64,000 nt of DNA from contig JANLGW010000014.1 of assembly GCA_024653965.1 (NCBI GenBank), positions 1-64,000 of the forward strand. Direction: 5' to 3'. The notes beneath the pieces were generated by a model. It did no database searches, was not told where the DNA came from, and saw only the letters and a list, made by a program, of their open reading frames with translations. Within the stretch, counting starts at the first letter, position 1, and each line of letters opens with the position of its first letter. The DNA is from Rhodospirillales bacterium (GTDB lineage Bacteria > Pseudomonadota > Alphaproteobacteria > Rhodospirillales > Magnetovibrionaceae). Positions 8,779 through 17,217 of this stretch are shown piece by piece. The translations under genes were made by a program, and so were the position numbers.

Positions 8779-10260
8779 TCAGCGCGCCAACATCCACACC
8801 ATCATCGCGCCGCCCATGACGATGCGATACCAGGCGAAAATCGCAAAACCGTGCCGCGAAACGAAGCTTAAAAACAGCCGCACCACGCTCAAGGCGGTCA
8901 GCAGGGCGACGACAAAACCCGTCGCGATAATTCCCGCATCGTCGAAATTGAGCACATCCCAATTTTTATACAGCGAATAGACGGCTGCGCCGAGCATGGT
9001 CGGGATGGCCAGAAAAAATGAGAACTCCGCCGCCGTCCGGCGTTCGACCCCGACCAGCAGCGCCCCCATGATGGTCGCGCCCGACCGCGAAACGCCGGGA
9101 ATCATCGAGAGGACCTGAAACAGGCCGATCTTCAAAGACAGGCCGCTGGAAAAGTCCTCGATGCGTCGGTAACGCCCCTCGTGGCGCATCCGCTCGATGG
9201 CGAGAATGGCAATGCCGCCCAGCACCAACATCACGGGCACCACCTCGGGCGCGCTTAAAAGGCGCTTGATCAGGGGATAAGCGAGCGCCCCGATCACCAT
9301 CGCCGGAAAAAATGCGATCAGAATATTGCGCACAAACGCACGCTCCACCGGGTCATAGGCAAAGTCCGCCGCCGCCCGCCACAATCGCCGCCAATACAGC
9401 AGACACACAGCCACGATGGCGCCCAATTGAATGACGATCTCGAAGGTCTTGCCCGGCGGCATCGGCACCGCCAGAAAATCGACGGCGAGAATCAGGTGCC
9501 CGGTCGAAGAAATGGGCAGAAACTCGGTCAAGCCTTCGAGCAACCCAAGAAAAACCGCCGCGAAAAACTGGCCCATGCCCATGTCCATACCTTGGCCCGA
9601 TACGGCAGCCCCCGCTGCATCCCCCATTGGCGCGACCGGCATGGCGCTGAAATATTCCGGCAGCTTCACCGCCGCAATGGCGAGCAAGATGAGCACCACC
9701 ACGGCGGTCGTCACCAGCTTGAGGCGCTTTTCGACAAAATCGCGAATCGTCGGCCCGAATTTCCACAGCAGCGCCGCGATCAGGAAAAACCGCATGGCCC
9801 GCGCAATGAAACTAGCGAAGGTAAATTGGAGCAAATCGAAATCGAAAGCGCCGGCGGCGATGGTGATGAGTTTATAAGGAATGGGCGTCGCGCCCTTCAC
9901 GATAATCACCCACACCCCATATTGATCAACCAAGGGTTTAAAGGCGTAGAACTTCTCCGTCAGGTGGAACACGTCCAAAATGGCCATGCCCAGCGTGCCC
10001 ATGAAAAAATAACCGATGGCATACCCCACATAACCGCCCGCCACCGAAGATAGGGTACAGACCATCGCAATGCGGAACCACCGGGTTGGGGCGGCCAAGA
10101 CCATCGGAATCAGCATGATATCGGGGGGAATGGGAAAGATTGAACTTTCGATGAACGAAACCACCGCCAGCCATGCCATCGCATGGCGATGCATCGCTTT
10201 GTCCATCGCCCAGCCATAAAACCGTTGCAGCATGTCGAAACTATATCCCTGTTGGATCAA
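8779..10260 (-). CDS. DedA/YqaA-like protein fused to undecaprenyl-diphosphatase UppP
   Basis: One uninterrupted 493-aa frame joins two membrane enzymes. Residues 1-200 are a DedA-superfamily (YqaA/VTT) domain: E38-S-S-I-F-P-I-P-P-D47, the second re-entrant stretch KGATPIPYKLITIAAGAF (122-139) and R154/R157. Residues 201-230 form a Met/Gly-rich linker. Residues 231-493 are complete UppP/BacA: LLEGLTEFLPISSTGHL with E242, E246 and H255, and PGVSRSGAT at 388-396. UppP removes a phosphate from C55-PP; some DedA proteins are reported to translocate C55-P across the membrane. The fusion could couple recycling and flipping of the lipid carrier. No other uppP is seen here. Its start is divergent from the SbmA-like gene. 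Confidence 0.9.
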   Translation of the reverse strand: MIQQGYSFDMLQRFYGWAMDKAMHRHAMAWLAVVSFIESSIFPIPPDIMLIPMVLAAPTRWFRIAMVCTLSSVAGGYVGYAIGYFFMGTLGMAILDVFHLTEKFYAFKPLVDQYGVWVIIVKGATPIPYKLITIAAGAFDFDLLQFTFASFIARAMRFFLIAALLWKFGPTIRDFVEKRLKLVTTAVVVLILLAIAAVKLPEYFSAMPVAPMGDAAGAAVSGQGMDMGMGQFFAAVFLGLLEGLTEFLPISSTGHLILAVDFLAVPMPPGKTFEIVIQLGAIVAVCLLYWRRLWRAAADFAYDPVERAFVRNILIAFFPAMVIGALAYPLIKRLLSAPEVVPVMLVLGGIAILAIERMRHEGRYRRIEDFSSGLSLKIGLFQVLSMIPGVSRSGATIMGALLVGVERRTAAEFSFFLAIPTMLGAAVYSLYKNWDVLNFDDAGIIATGFVVALLTALSVVRLFLSFVSRHGFAIFAWYRIVMGGAMMVWMLAR

Positions 10261-10507: not shown

Positions 10508-12334
10508 ATGAGGTCTGAAATAAAGAACGGACCAAAGTTCCATAAATTTGTCCGCAAAACGCGAGACTGGCCCGAGTTCTTTCGTCAATTTTTCCGCCTA
10601 GCGACCCCCTTCTGGAAAGGCGAAACCCGGTGGACCGCCTACGGGTTAACGGCAGGGCTTATCGTTTTGACCATCGCCCAAGTCGTCATTCCCGTCGCCA
10701 TTAATTTTTGGAGCGAAGGATTTTTTGACGCCCTCGAACAGCGTTCTTGGGATCTGTTCCTCGAACTGACGGGCGTACTGGGGCTGATCATCGCCGCCAA
10801 CGTCGCCATCGTGACGCTGCACTTGCGGGTCAAGCGGCGGCTGCAGGTCAGCTGGCGCACCTGGCTGACCGACCGGGTGGTCGGCGAGTGGATGACGACG
10901 GGCCGCCAGTACGAGGTATCCTCGCTGCCCGGCGAACACGACAATCCCGACGGGCGCATCGCCGAAGACGTGCGCATCGCCACCGAATACGCCATCGACC
11001 TCGCCCACTCCTTGTTTTTTTGCACCCTGCTTTTGATCAGTTTCACCAAAATTTTGTGGTCGCGTTCCGGGCCGCCGGAAATCCGGATCGGCGACATCGA
11101 GTTATGGATTCCCGGCCATCTGGTGTGGATCGCCATTATTTATGCGGCAAGCGGCGCCTTCATCGCGTGGTGGCTAGGCCGACCGCTGGTCGGGGCCGCG
11201 AACCGGCGCCAAATGTGGGAGGCCAACTTTCGTTTCGGCTTGGCCCACGCGCGGGAAAACGCGATGCCCATCGCTTTGCTGCGTGGCGAACCGGATGAAC
11301 GGCGCAACCTGCTCGGCCTGTTCGATGGCGCGGCGGATGCGTGGAACAAGCAAACATACGCCCTGACCCGGTTGTTTGCGTTTACCTCGTTCTGGTCGGT
11401 CGTCAGCCAAGTTTTTCCGGTCATGATCGCCGCCCCCCGCTACATCGCCCATACGATCAGCTTGGGCGTGCTGATGCAAACGGCCCAAGCGTTTCAGCAA
11501 ATGGTGGCGGCGCTGTCATGGCCCATCGACAATCTGGCCAGGGCCGCGGAGTGGCGGGCTTCATCCGAACGCGTGCTCGGGCTGCACGAAGCGCTGAACT
11601 GCATCGTCGAACGCATCCCCCGCGAAAAAGACGCCGCCATCCAAATCCACTTAGGCAGCCGGCCTGCACTCGAATTTTGCCAAGTCGCCATCACCGACCC
11701 GGAGGGCGGACTCCTCATCGAACCCTTCGACCTGGAAATCAAAGCCGGGGAACGGGTGCTGATTTCCGGCGACCATGCCGCCGCGCAGGCCATGTGCAAG
11801 GTCGTGGCCGGATTATGGCCGTGGGGACGGGGCGAGATCATCACGCCCAACGACGACGAAATTTTCTTCCTGCCGCAGCATTCCTATCTGCCCATCGGCC
11901 CCCTAAACGGCGCGGTCTGTTACCCCTCGCCGCCCTTATTTTGCGATTTGGATGAAATCGCCCGATCACTGCGCGCCGTCGGGTTGGAGGCTCTCGTCGA
12001 GCGTAGCGCCGAAAGCGGAAACTGGGCCGATATTCTGACTTTAGAAGAACAACAGCGGGTCGGTTTTGCGCGGCTGCTGCTGCGCCGCCCCCGTTGGGTC
12101 TTTATCCAAGAAGCGGTGGATGTGCTCGACCGCGAGGTACGCGGCGCCATGATGGATTTAATCTTACGGGAGCTTCCCGACTCGACCATCATCACCATCG
12201 GCCATCACCGCGATCTTGCCGCTTACCACAGCCGTAGGGTGGTGCTGTCGCGCACCAACGGCACGGTCACCGTAGAAGAACGCCCAGCAGAAAACGGCAT
12301 CGGGGCAGAGGATAACTCCCCCGCTCTGCTGTAA
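10508..12334 (+). CDS. SbmA/ABCD-type ABC protein with degenerate ATPase domain
   Basis: A 608-aa half-transporter. The N-terminal half (to about residue 340) is an ABC_membrane_2/SbmA-BacA domain with about six helices. The C-terminal half keeps the nucleotide-binding fold but has lost its motifs. Walker A reads SGDHAAAQAM, with Q427 in place of lysine and one residue missing. The signature is LTLEEQQR, with E513 for glycine. Walker B is FIQEAVDVLD, with Q534 for aspartate; E535 and H566 remain. The frame is intact throughout. E. coli SbmA has no ATPase domain and is proton-driven, so this may be a non-hydrolysing relative. Substrate unknown. It is divergent from the DedA-UppP gene across 247 nt. 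Confidence 0.85.
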   Translation: MRSEIKNGPKFHKFVRKTRDWPEFFRQFFRLATPFWKGETRWTAYGLTAGLIVLTIAQVVIPVAINFWSEGFFDALEQRSWDLFLELTGVLGLIIAANVAIVTLHLRVKRRLQVSWRTWLTDRVVGEWMTTGRQYEVSSLPGEHDNPDGRIAEDVRIATEYAIDLAHSLFFCTLLLISFTKILWSRSGPPEIRIGDIELWIPGHLVWIAIIYAASGAFIAWWLGRPLVGAANRRQMWEANFRFGLAHARENAMPIALLRGEPDERRNLLGLFDGAADAWNKQTYALTRLFAFTSFWSVVSQVFPVMIAAPRYIAHTISLGVLMQTAQAFQQMVAALSWPIDNLARAAEWRASSERVLGLHEALNCIVERIPREKDAAIQIHLGSRPALEFCQVAITDPEGGLLIEPFDLEIKAGERVLISGDHAAAQAMCKVVAGLWPWGRGEIITPNDDEIFFLPQHSYLPIGPLNGAVCYPSPPLFCDLDEIARSLRAVGLEALVERSAESGNWADILTLEEQQRVGFARLLLRRPRWVFIQEAVDVLDREVRGAMMDLILRELPDSTIITIGHHRDLAAYHSRRVVLSRTNGTVTVEERPAENGIGAEDNSPALL

Positions 12335-12523: not shown

Positions 12524-12613
12524 TGGCGGAGAGAGTGGGATTCGAACCCACGTTAGGATTTCGCCTAAACACGCTTTCCAAGCGTGCGCCTTCAGCCACT
12601 CGGCCACCTCTCC
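12524..12613 (-). tRNA. tRNA-Ser (anticodon GGA)
   Basis: A 90-nt cloverleaf on the reverse strand. The acceptor stem GGAGAGG pairs with TCTCTCC (one G-U), then G and an encoded CCA. The anticodon arm CACGC/GCGTG holds loop TTGGAAA with anticodon GGA. A long serine-type variable arm (TTAGGCGAAATCCTAA) and a GTTCGAATC T-loop follow. It decodes UCC/UCU. Confidence 0.96.
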
Positions 12614-15860: not shown

Positions 15861-17126
15861 TCACGCCATGCGGAAGCGGCGGCGCACCGCGAGGATGAAC
15901 AACGTCACGAACCCGGCGGTGGCGAGGGTTTGTAGTGTCGCCACAATACCGAAGAAAAACCGCCCCCATGGGCCGAGGCCAGTTATGCCAACCCCCGAAA
16001 TAATCGCGTCGAATGGCTTAACCATTTGCATGGTGTCGAATTTCAACACTTCGACCAATAAGGATGCATCCCCCTTGATCCCGGCCAATCCCAGCACAAA
16101 GCAATAAAGCAGGAAACCGAAGTAAAACACGCCAATCACCCCCACCAGTGGCCTTGCCAAACTCTGCCCGTATTCAGAGGCCACGTCATACGACCAGGAA
16201 ACAAACCTCACGAACCAGTGCGTGCCCGGCTGATGGCGCAGGCTCCGTTCTTCCAGCGCATGAAACTTGGCCATGCCATCCCAATTGCGCATCTCCTCCA
16301 TAGCCAATTTTAAGGTGCGATAGGCGGAAGGAGCATGGAGGCTTTTGACATCAAGAAATTCCGCCTTCTCAATGGTGCAGCCTTGATGCAATTGCGCGCC
16401 GTGAAAATCAGGCGCGACGTGAAACACCGCGCCCCAGAAATCCACGGGCTCTGAAAACCGACGGTTGGTAAACCGCGCCCCTCTCTCAAACTGCGCCCAA
16501 CGGAAATCTATACTAGGGAACGGGGGCGTCTTTTCATTAGCGGAAAAGTCCGCAAGCTCCATAAAACGAGCACCTACGAAGCTGACCCAATTCTCAAATT
16601 CAGAATCCGAAAAATTGGCTTCGCCCCTAAACTCAACATTAGTAAAAAATGCACCCCGCGAAAAGAAAGCTCGCTCAAATTCTGCCGATCCGTAAAAGCA
16701 CGCCCATTCCAAACGCAAAAATGGAAAATGTGCCCTTCCGTCTCCAGTCTTGGGGTTGACTCCTACGGGATGCTCCAACGCCTCAATAAGGCCAAACTCA
16801 TATGGAAAGACCACCCCTCGTAAATCAGCAACCTCATAAGTTACTGTCTCTCGTTCCCCAAACCCCCGCAGTAATGCGCCACGAATGCCCTGCTTAAAAG
16901 AGGTACGCCCTGACCACGACGGATCTTCCTTATCGGTAGGCGCGCCATCCTTGTGCTCCATCGGCATGTGGAAGCAGCAATAATGCTTGCCGTCCACCTC
17001 GAAGAATTTCCTTACCCCACTGAATTGACATGGTTCCAACTCCGATTCTGACGAAAAACCCGGAAAGTAAAAATAAGGCTCTATTTGAGCACAACACTTC
17101 GGTTTATCGTCTAAGGCTTCGCTCAT
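15861..17126 (-). CDS. Pentapeptide-repeat protein with Cys/His N-terminus and C-terminal membrane domain
   Basis: A 421-aa protein. The N-terminus (residues 10-55) holds paired cysteines and a histidine in CQFSGVRKFF then YCCFHMP, spaced like a small zinc knuckle. Residues about 90-250 are degenerate pentapeptide repeats (ACFYGSAEFERAFFSRGAFFTNVEFRGEANFSDSEF), which fold as a right-handed quadrilateral helix. The C-terminal third has two strong helices separated by about 50 residues, ending TLQTLATAGFVTLFILAVRRRF, like channel-type tails on other pentapeptide proteins. Base composition is lower in GC than its surroundings, suggesting transfer. It is next to, and in line with, the HigBA-type pair. 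Function unknown; a membrane sensor or effector is possible. Confidence 0.75.
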   Translation of the reverse strand: MSEALDDKPKCCAQIEPYFYFPGFSSESELEPCQFSGVRKFFEVDGKHYCCFHMPMEHKDGAPTDKEDPSWSGRTSFKQGIRGALLRGFGERETVTYEVADLRGVVFPYEFGLIEALEHPVGVNPKTGDGRAHFPFLRLEWACFYGSAEFERAFFSRGAFFTNVEFRGEANFSDSEFENWVSFVGARFMELADFSANEKTPPFPSIDFRWAQFERGARFTNRRFSEPVDFWGAVFHVAPDFHGAQLHQGCTIEKAEFLDVKSLHAPSAYRTLKLAMEEMRNWDGMAKFHALEERSLRHQPGTHWFVRFVSWSYDVASEYGQSLARPLVGVIGVFYFGFLLYCFVLGLAGIKGDASLLVEVLKFDTMQMVKPFDAIISGVGITGLGPWGRFFFGIVATLQTLATAGFVTLFILAVRRRFRMA

Positions 17127-17217
17127 GGTCACGCTCGCGGGTTTAGAATCGCTCTGTCGCGGTCATTCTACCATTGCTGGTCCGATTCGCCTATGAAACG
17201 CGGCGCTAAGTGCGCGC

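Follow-up and report, generated by a model that had tools for sequence, protein, structure and literature searches.

Conserved loss of the ATP site in a clade of BclA/YddA-type half-transporters linked to GH1 beta-glucosidases

The window analysed here, a whole stretch of 64,000 nucleotides from a Rhodospirillales bacterium (contig JANLGW010000014.1), contains a gene for a BclA/YddA-type half-transporter whose nucleotide-binding domain (NBD) has lost, in its Walker A, Walker B and signature motifs, the residues on which ATP hydrolysis depends. Why would such a domain be kept, and how might its owner work: as a decaying gene, as a step towards the peptide importer SbmA, as one half of a heterodimer, or as a permease that does without ATP? 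The gene and the features discussed below are the following.

10508–12334, + strand: gene for a BclA/YddA-type half-transporter with a dead NBD; 608 amino acids, ATG start, open frame
10628–11440, + strand: transmembrane domain (TMD; PF06472/PF05992), residues 41–311 by Pfam
10820–10822, + strand: H105, a histidine specific to the dead clade
11006–11008, + strand: H167, a histidine in most dead-clade members, adjoining the column of SbmA E203
11663–12292, + strand: NBD, residues 386–595, with the fold retained and the ATP site gone
11768–11791, + strand: former Walker A, residues G421–A428 (GDHAAAQA), without GK[ST] and with one residue deleted
12035–12055, + strand: former ABC signature, residues 510–516 (LTLEEQQ), with E513 in place of the signature glycine
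12095–12112, + strand: former Walker B, residues 530–535 (WVFIQE), with Q534 in place of the aspartate and E535 in the catalytic-glutamate column
12203–12205, + strand: H566, in the H-loop column
12524–12613, − strand: tRNA-Ser (gga), a short distance beyond the end of the transporter gene

A nucleotide-binding fold without its ATP site

The 608-aa product matches the Pfam families ABC_membrane_2 (6.7e-33) and SbmA_BacA (2.7e-20), both above the curated cut-off, and Pfam returned no ABC_tran match in this frame; its NBD is still recognised by NCBIfam and by PDB sequence searches. The closest solved relative is Rv1819c (PDB sequence search, 6.7e-59; Foldseek TM score of 0.80), and ABCD1 and ABCD3 are also among the best fold matches. 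An AlphaFold2 model with a mean pLDDT of 91 contains the full NBD fold. In this model, the strand formed by residues 416–421 is followed by a helix (423–433) that begins only one residue later and, therefore, no P-loop remains.

A sequence-only reading of this DNA had claimed that all three catalytic signatures are altered in an intact frame, and family alignments bear this out over an open frame of 608 codons. Q427 occupies the column of the Walker A lysine and is followed by a one-residue deletion. E513 falls in the column of the signature glycine and Q534 in that of the Walker B aspartate, and these two columns hold Gly and Asp, respectively, in 32/32 intact relatives. The same reading was also right that the fold and H566 persist, as judged from the well folded domain of the model and from the alignment. 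It was silent on two further residues that the query retains, E535 in the catalytic-glutamate column and the Q-loop glutamine, Q457.

A regular expression for the P-loop defined the set of dead members used for column counts, dN/dS and trees, which makes counts of Walker A loss inside this set circular. Across this set, the catalytic-glutamate column contains E in 38 and D in 41 of 91 members, the Q-loop column Q in 41 and E in 37 of 92, the signature-glycine column Gly in 23 of 91 and the H-loop column His in 29 of 90, whereas structural columns of the NBD are fixed (W437, W439, G442, P447 and P473 in 92/92; R522 and W530 in 91/91). The Walker B aspartate is still present in one of 30 dead-type loci (L241). 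The persistence of E535, Q457 and H566 in the query and its intact predicted fold could speak for a protein that still binds and uses ATP through an unusual site, and the acidic residue (E or D) that still adjoins the position of the Walker B aspartate makes residual nucleotide binding conceivable. Nevertheless, the P-loop, its lysine and the Walker B aspartate are lost jointly and the other contact columns drift across the clade, which leaves continued use of ATP hardly plausible.

Two loci outside the clade also depart from the canonical site: L183 has a Walker A and a change from His to Gln in the H-loop, and L171 has Asp for the catalytic Glu and has lost the H-loop His. Judging from their motifs, they are perhaps further stages of ATP-site loss.

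The window contains other genes of note close to the transporter. A 493-aa frame at 8779–10260 (− strand) joins a VTT (DedA-type) domain (residues 44–164) to an undecaprenyl-diphosphatase UppP/BacA domain (residues 235–484), the latter unrelated to SbmA/BacA. We take the function of the VTT domain to be lipid-carrier flipping, and this protein could possibly combine cleavage and flipping of one lipid carrier in a single chain. Another frame, of 423 aa, at 15861–17132 (− strand), contains pentapeptide repeats (PF13576).

Shared loss, selection and the relation to SbmA

The losses are shared by orthologues. The P-loop is absent from 82 of 86 relatives, the other four, all distant, having one; these relatives were chosen by similarity alone, with a search that used peptide patterns of the query and hence favours close kin. 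A loss common to so many relatives is far from chance. In a profile search of 199 genomes of the order, the matches fell into two distinct ranges of score, one of 822 bits or more (37 genomes) and one of 569 bits or less (15 genomes), four genomes being represented in both. Likewise, among the loci taken from the profile searches of the order and the phylum, Walker A is absent in 30/30 top-scoring loci and present in 28/28 lower-scoring loci; this comparison, by profile score, and that of the 86 relatives, by similarity, are the counts of loss free of circularity. The dead type occurs, in open frames, in several families of Alphaproteobacteria and also in a few assemblies that carry a gammaproteobacterial label.

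In trees built from the TMD only, which omit the columns carrying the motif loss, the dead members form one group, supported at 98 (SH-aLRT) in a larger, quick tree (42 dead rows of 87) and at 99/97 in a reduced, more careful one (18 dead rows of 47), and in both this clade is nested among relatives that have an NBD and whose Walker A is intact. Forty genes were hand-chosen from the non-SbmA matches, with no random draw, and L038 and L051 were left out, being identical to L004 and L005. For the reduced tree, 16 rows that appeared long-branched, oddly composed or unclear (seven without an NBD or of SbmA, and nine intact, including Escherichia coli YddA) were removed after the first tree had been seen, and the dead rows were cut from 42 to 18.

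The median dN/dS of the NBD is 0.173 in the dead clade (28 independent pairs) and 0.181 in intact relatives (four pairs), and that of the TMD is 0.126 and 0.150, respectively. Mean identity in the dead clade is higher in the TMD (57%) than in the NBD (49%), and intact relatives show the opposite order (38% and 43%); these means still include L170 (APSGTGKT), wrongly typed as dead and dropped from the column counts. These values indicate that the NBD of the dead clade is under purifying selection. Because its structural columns are fixed and its dN/dS is low while its nucleotide-contact columns are loose, the fold of the NBD is under selection and the ATP site is not. Decay of the gene would account for columns at which the query strays further from the clade consensus than its relatives, such as M429, C430 and N467; set against this are a loss common to several alphaproteobacterial families in open frames and a dN/dS well below 1 in both domains, so that the query is almost certainly not a gene in decay. 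For the clade as a whole, the shared loss, the open frames and a dN/dS far below 1 refute decay.

The sequence-only reading had also proposed that the protein is a missing intermediate towards SbmA. According to the portions of PMC13316013 (2026) available to us, SbmA is proposed to derive from a YddA-like protein after loss of the NBD, the loss of coupling helices is a feature of SbmA/BacA (SLiPT), and the proton ladder of SbmA consists of E193, E203, E269, E276, E287 and E378, of which YddA lacks E203 and E287. The corresponding residues of the query are E153, I163, A231, E238, R249 and E348, that is, three of six glutamates. An intermediate would require that the NBD died first and was dropped later, with transport already driven by protons, and this would fit the three matching glutamates and the shared membrane fold (9g3g, Z of 24.9 over 309 residues). 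However, the clade lacks equivalents of E203, E269 and E287, as do most ATP-driven relatives, and SbmA lies outside the dead clade in both TMD trees. A grouping of the clade with SbmA can be rejected on the reduced tree (p-AU of 0.002), a result that depends on the choice of rows, and not on the larger one (p-AU of 0.18), so some kinship is still conceivable. All considered, we find an intermediate towards SbmA very unlikely. Rather, as far as these alignments and trees allow us to judge, the superfamily probably gave up ATP use on two independent occasions, in one case discarding the NBD and in the other keeping it.

The clade might instead possess a proton ladder of its own, unrelated to that of SbmA and formed by H105, H167, E160 and D164, and thus act as a proton-coupled symporter. 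These positions are well conserved in the dead clade (H105 and E160 in 91/92, D or E at 164 in 83/92, H167 in 74/92) and, in a second set, H105 occurs in 30/30 dead members and 0/28 intact relatives. Conversely, E160 and D/E164 are also found in intact sisters such as L177, and a pathway through all four residues is hypothetical. We consider this symporter unlikely, although deserving of some weight.

Partner subunit and neighbouring GH1 genes

A partner half-transporter in the genome, as suggested by the sequence-only reading, was not found: in profile searches for PF05992 and PF06472, the query is the only match in its own genome, which is 99.6% complete. Among the 37 carrier genomes, 33 are without an intact homologue and four have one. 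ABC-like frames, sought with a simple motif and a simple gene finder, occur in the flanks of only 4/78 clade loci, so we rejected a partner NBD encoded next door. There are well-known examples of ABC exporters in which one of the sites is degenerate (excerpts of PMC12038006 and PMC7544095), and the four carriers with an intact homologue could agree with the query being a regulatory or non-catalytic subunit that pairs with an ATP-competent one in a heterodimer. Given the lone match in a nearly complete genome, the 33 carriers without an intact homologue and the scarcity of flanking ABC-like frames, we hold such a heterodimer to be highly improbable.

Most of the clade loci share a different kind of neighbour. 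A Pfam scan of 100 nearest-neighbour frames, part of 149 after leaving out near-duplicate loci and long frames, yielded 30 GH1 beta-glucosidases, the next families having at most four. Within the available flanks (up to ca. 5 kb), GH1 is present at 56 of 78 clade loci, either downstream and convergent (21), upstream on the same strand (20) or downstream on the same strand (15), compared with 0/20 loci of intact homologues with similar flanks, control loci that were picked by hand. The remaining 22 loci have no GH1 nearby, some of them being on short contigs; seven from Neoroseomonas/Roseomonas and three from Novispirillaceae lack it next door although their flanks are long, save the upstream flank of L097.

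Co-occurrence across genomes points in the same direction. Of the 199 genomes of the order, GH1 was found in 35/37 carriers of the transporter, one of them with a broken copy only, and in 22/162 non-carriers (Fisher p of 1.5e-21, ignoring the kinship of genomes), and 17 of these 22 belong to one genus; it lies within 5 kb of the transporter in 18/37 carriers. Both genes are absent in 17/17 genomes of the same family, several of them incomplete, and in one genus GH1 is missing from two genomes that have the transporter and is broken in another. The pair thus tends towards joint gain or loss, with exceptions. The genome of the window itself contains one GH1 gene, around 70% identical to the linked ones, on another contig (L264, G000:C117:9000-25000), where a GH3 beta-glucosidase gene follows on the opposite strand; this separate location counts against pairing with the transporter. 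Together, the comparative data indicate that these proteins are a conserved clade of NBD-dead BclA/YddA-type transporters tied to GH1.

At one dead-type locus, L270 (G876:C22:204000-222000), three genes for GH1 and one for an MFS transporter lie within ca. 8 kb.

The linked GH1 genes are of two subtypes, TFNEFSV-like and MMLNEPNV-like. The nucleophile glutamate and an FEW/YEW site are kept in 57/57 rows and the acid/base glutamate in 56/57, four of the rows (L056, L058, L076 and L078) being partial. We assume that the FEW/YEW site is typical of enzymes for free, rather than phosphorylated, glucosides. No signal peptide was evident in the GH1 N-termini inspected by eye. With an active site that reads as one for free glucosides and no evident signal peptide, the substrates would have to enter the cytosol unphosphorylated.

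A candidate permease among known transporters

We propose, with a probability of about 0.45, that the query is a homodimeric, ATP-independent permease of the BclA/YddA type for unphosphorylated beta-glycosides, with GH1 as their intracellular sink. The half-transporter would pair with itself and move its substrates, most likely hydrophilic, by alternating access without using ATP; a broad-cavity permease of the Rv1819c kind could admit such compounds. Cleavage of the imported beta-glycosides in the cytosol by the GH1 beta-glucosidase would lower their concentration inside and pull uptake along the gradient, as facilitated diffusion. Since hydrolysis would keep the gradient inward, ATP would not be needed; protons might perhaps assist through the ionisable residues specific to the clade. 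The retained NBD, neither binding nor hydrolysing ATP, would brace or gate the membrane domain from the cytosolic side. The sequence-only reading had put forward a structural or regulatory role for the kept domain, and such a role is indeed likely because the frame is intact around a dead nucleotide site, the losses recur in orthologues and selection maintains the domain.

There are precedents for ABC membrane domains uncoupled from ATP, since LmrA functions in proton-coupled transport after removal of its NBD (excerpt of PMC2704374) and TAP, when mutated, turns into an ATP-uncoupled facilitator (excerpt of PMC10960864). Nonetheless, the compounds that relatives of the BclA/YddA/Rv1819c type are known to import are peptides and cobalamin rather than sugars (partial texts of PMC12003926 and PMC10960864), which counts against a beta-glycoside permease. 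The pair could also serve another purpose than sugar uptake, such as glycolipid flipping or the export of a glycosylated product on which GH1 acts. Some proteins of the wider fold family, to which the good fold matches ABCD1 and ABCD3 belong, do move lipids and acyl-CoA, although Rv1819c, the closest match in both fold and sequence, carries water-soluble compounds (excerpt of PMC10960864), and we regard this alternative cargo as quite improbable. Extending the beta-glycoside permease to the clade, that is, an entire lineage that became ATP-free independently of SbmA, kept its NBD as a lock or brace made of the old motor and is pulled by GH1 hydrolysis, is a somewhat more tentative proposal than that for the query.

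In a literature search of open-licence PMC papers, partly available as excerpts, we recognised none on a dead-NBD BclA/YddA clade or its GH1 link, and the clade seems unremarked in those parts of the main texts of PMC12003926 and PMC13316013, two studies of the family, that were available. If our proposal is true, this would be a natural lineage of ABC transporters whose homodimer is without any working ATP site, and a living comparison for the loss of the motor in SbmA. A dead yet retained NBD opens the question of which roles NBDs have beyond hydrolysis, and the GH1 link offers a concrete substrate class, testable in culturable bacteria (Azospirillum and relatives of Magnetospirillum).

The clade shares with BclA, YddA and Rv1819c (mycobacterial BacA) a type IV membrane domain and the architecture of a half-transporter with TMD and NBD in one chain; Rv1819c is the best sequence and fold match of the query, and the clade sits among this type in the trees. 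Unlike them, it has lost the ATP site throughout, and its linkage to GH1 was seen at none of the 20 control loci of intact homologues. With the proton-driven peptide importers SbmA/BacA (SLiPT) it has in common a homologous membrane domain, the want of a usable ATPase and three of the six ladder glutamates, but SbmA/BacA have no NBD where the clade has a complete NBD fold without the E203, E269 and E287 equivalents, and the two are separate in both trees. Degenerate-site ABC exporters (TM287/288, MsRv1273c/72c and TAP) also have altered catalytic motifs in a retained NBD; according to the excerpts cited above, they keep one working site per dimer, whereas a homodimer of the clade would have none. 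Finally, the engineered LmrA-MD, from which the NBD was deleted, resembles the proposed mode of the clade in being an ABC membrane domain that works without ATP (PMC2704374, excerpt); there, the change is an engineered deletion in an exporter, while here it is natural and the NBD is retained.
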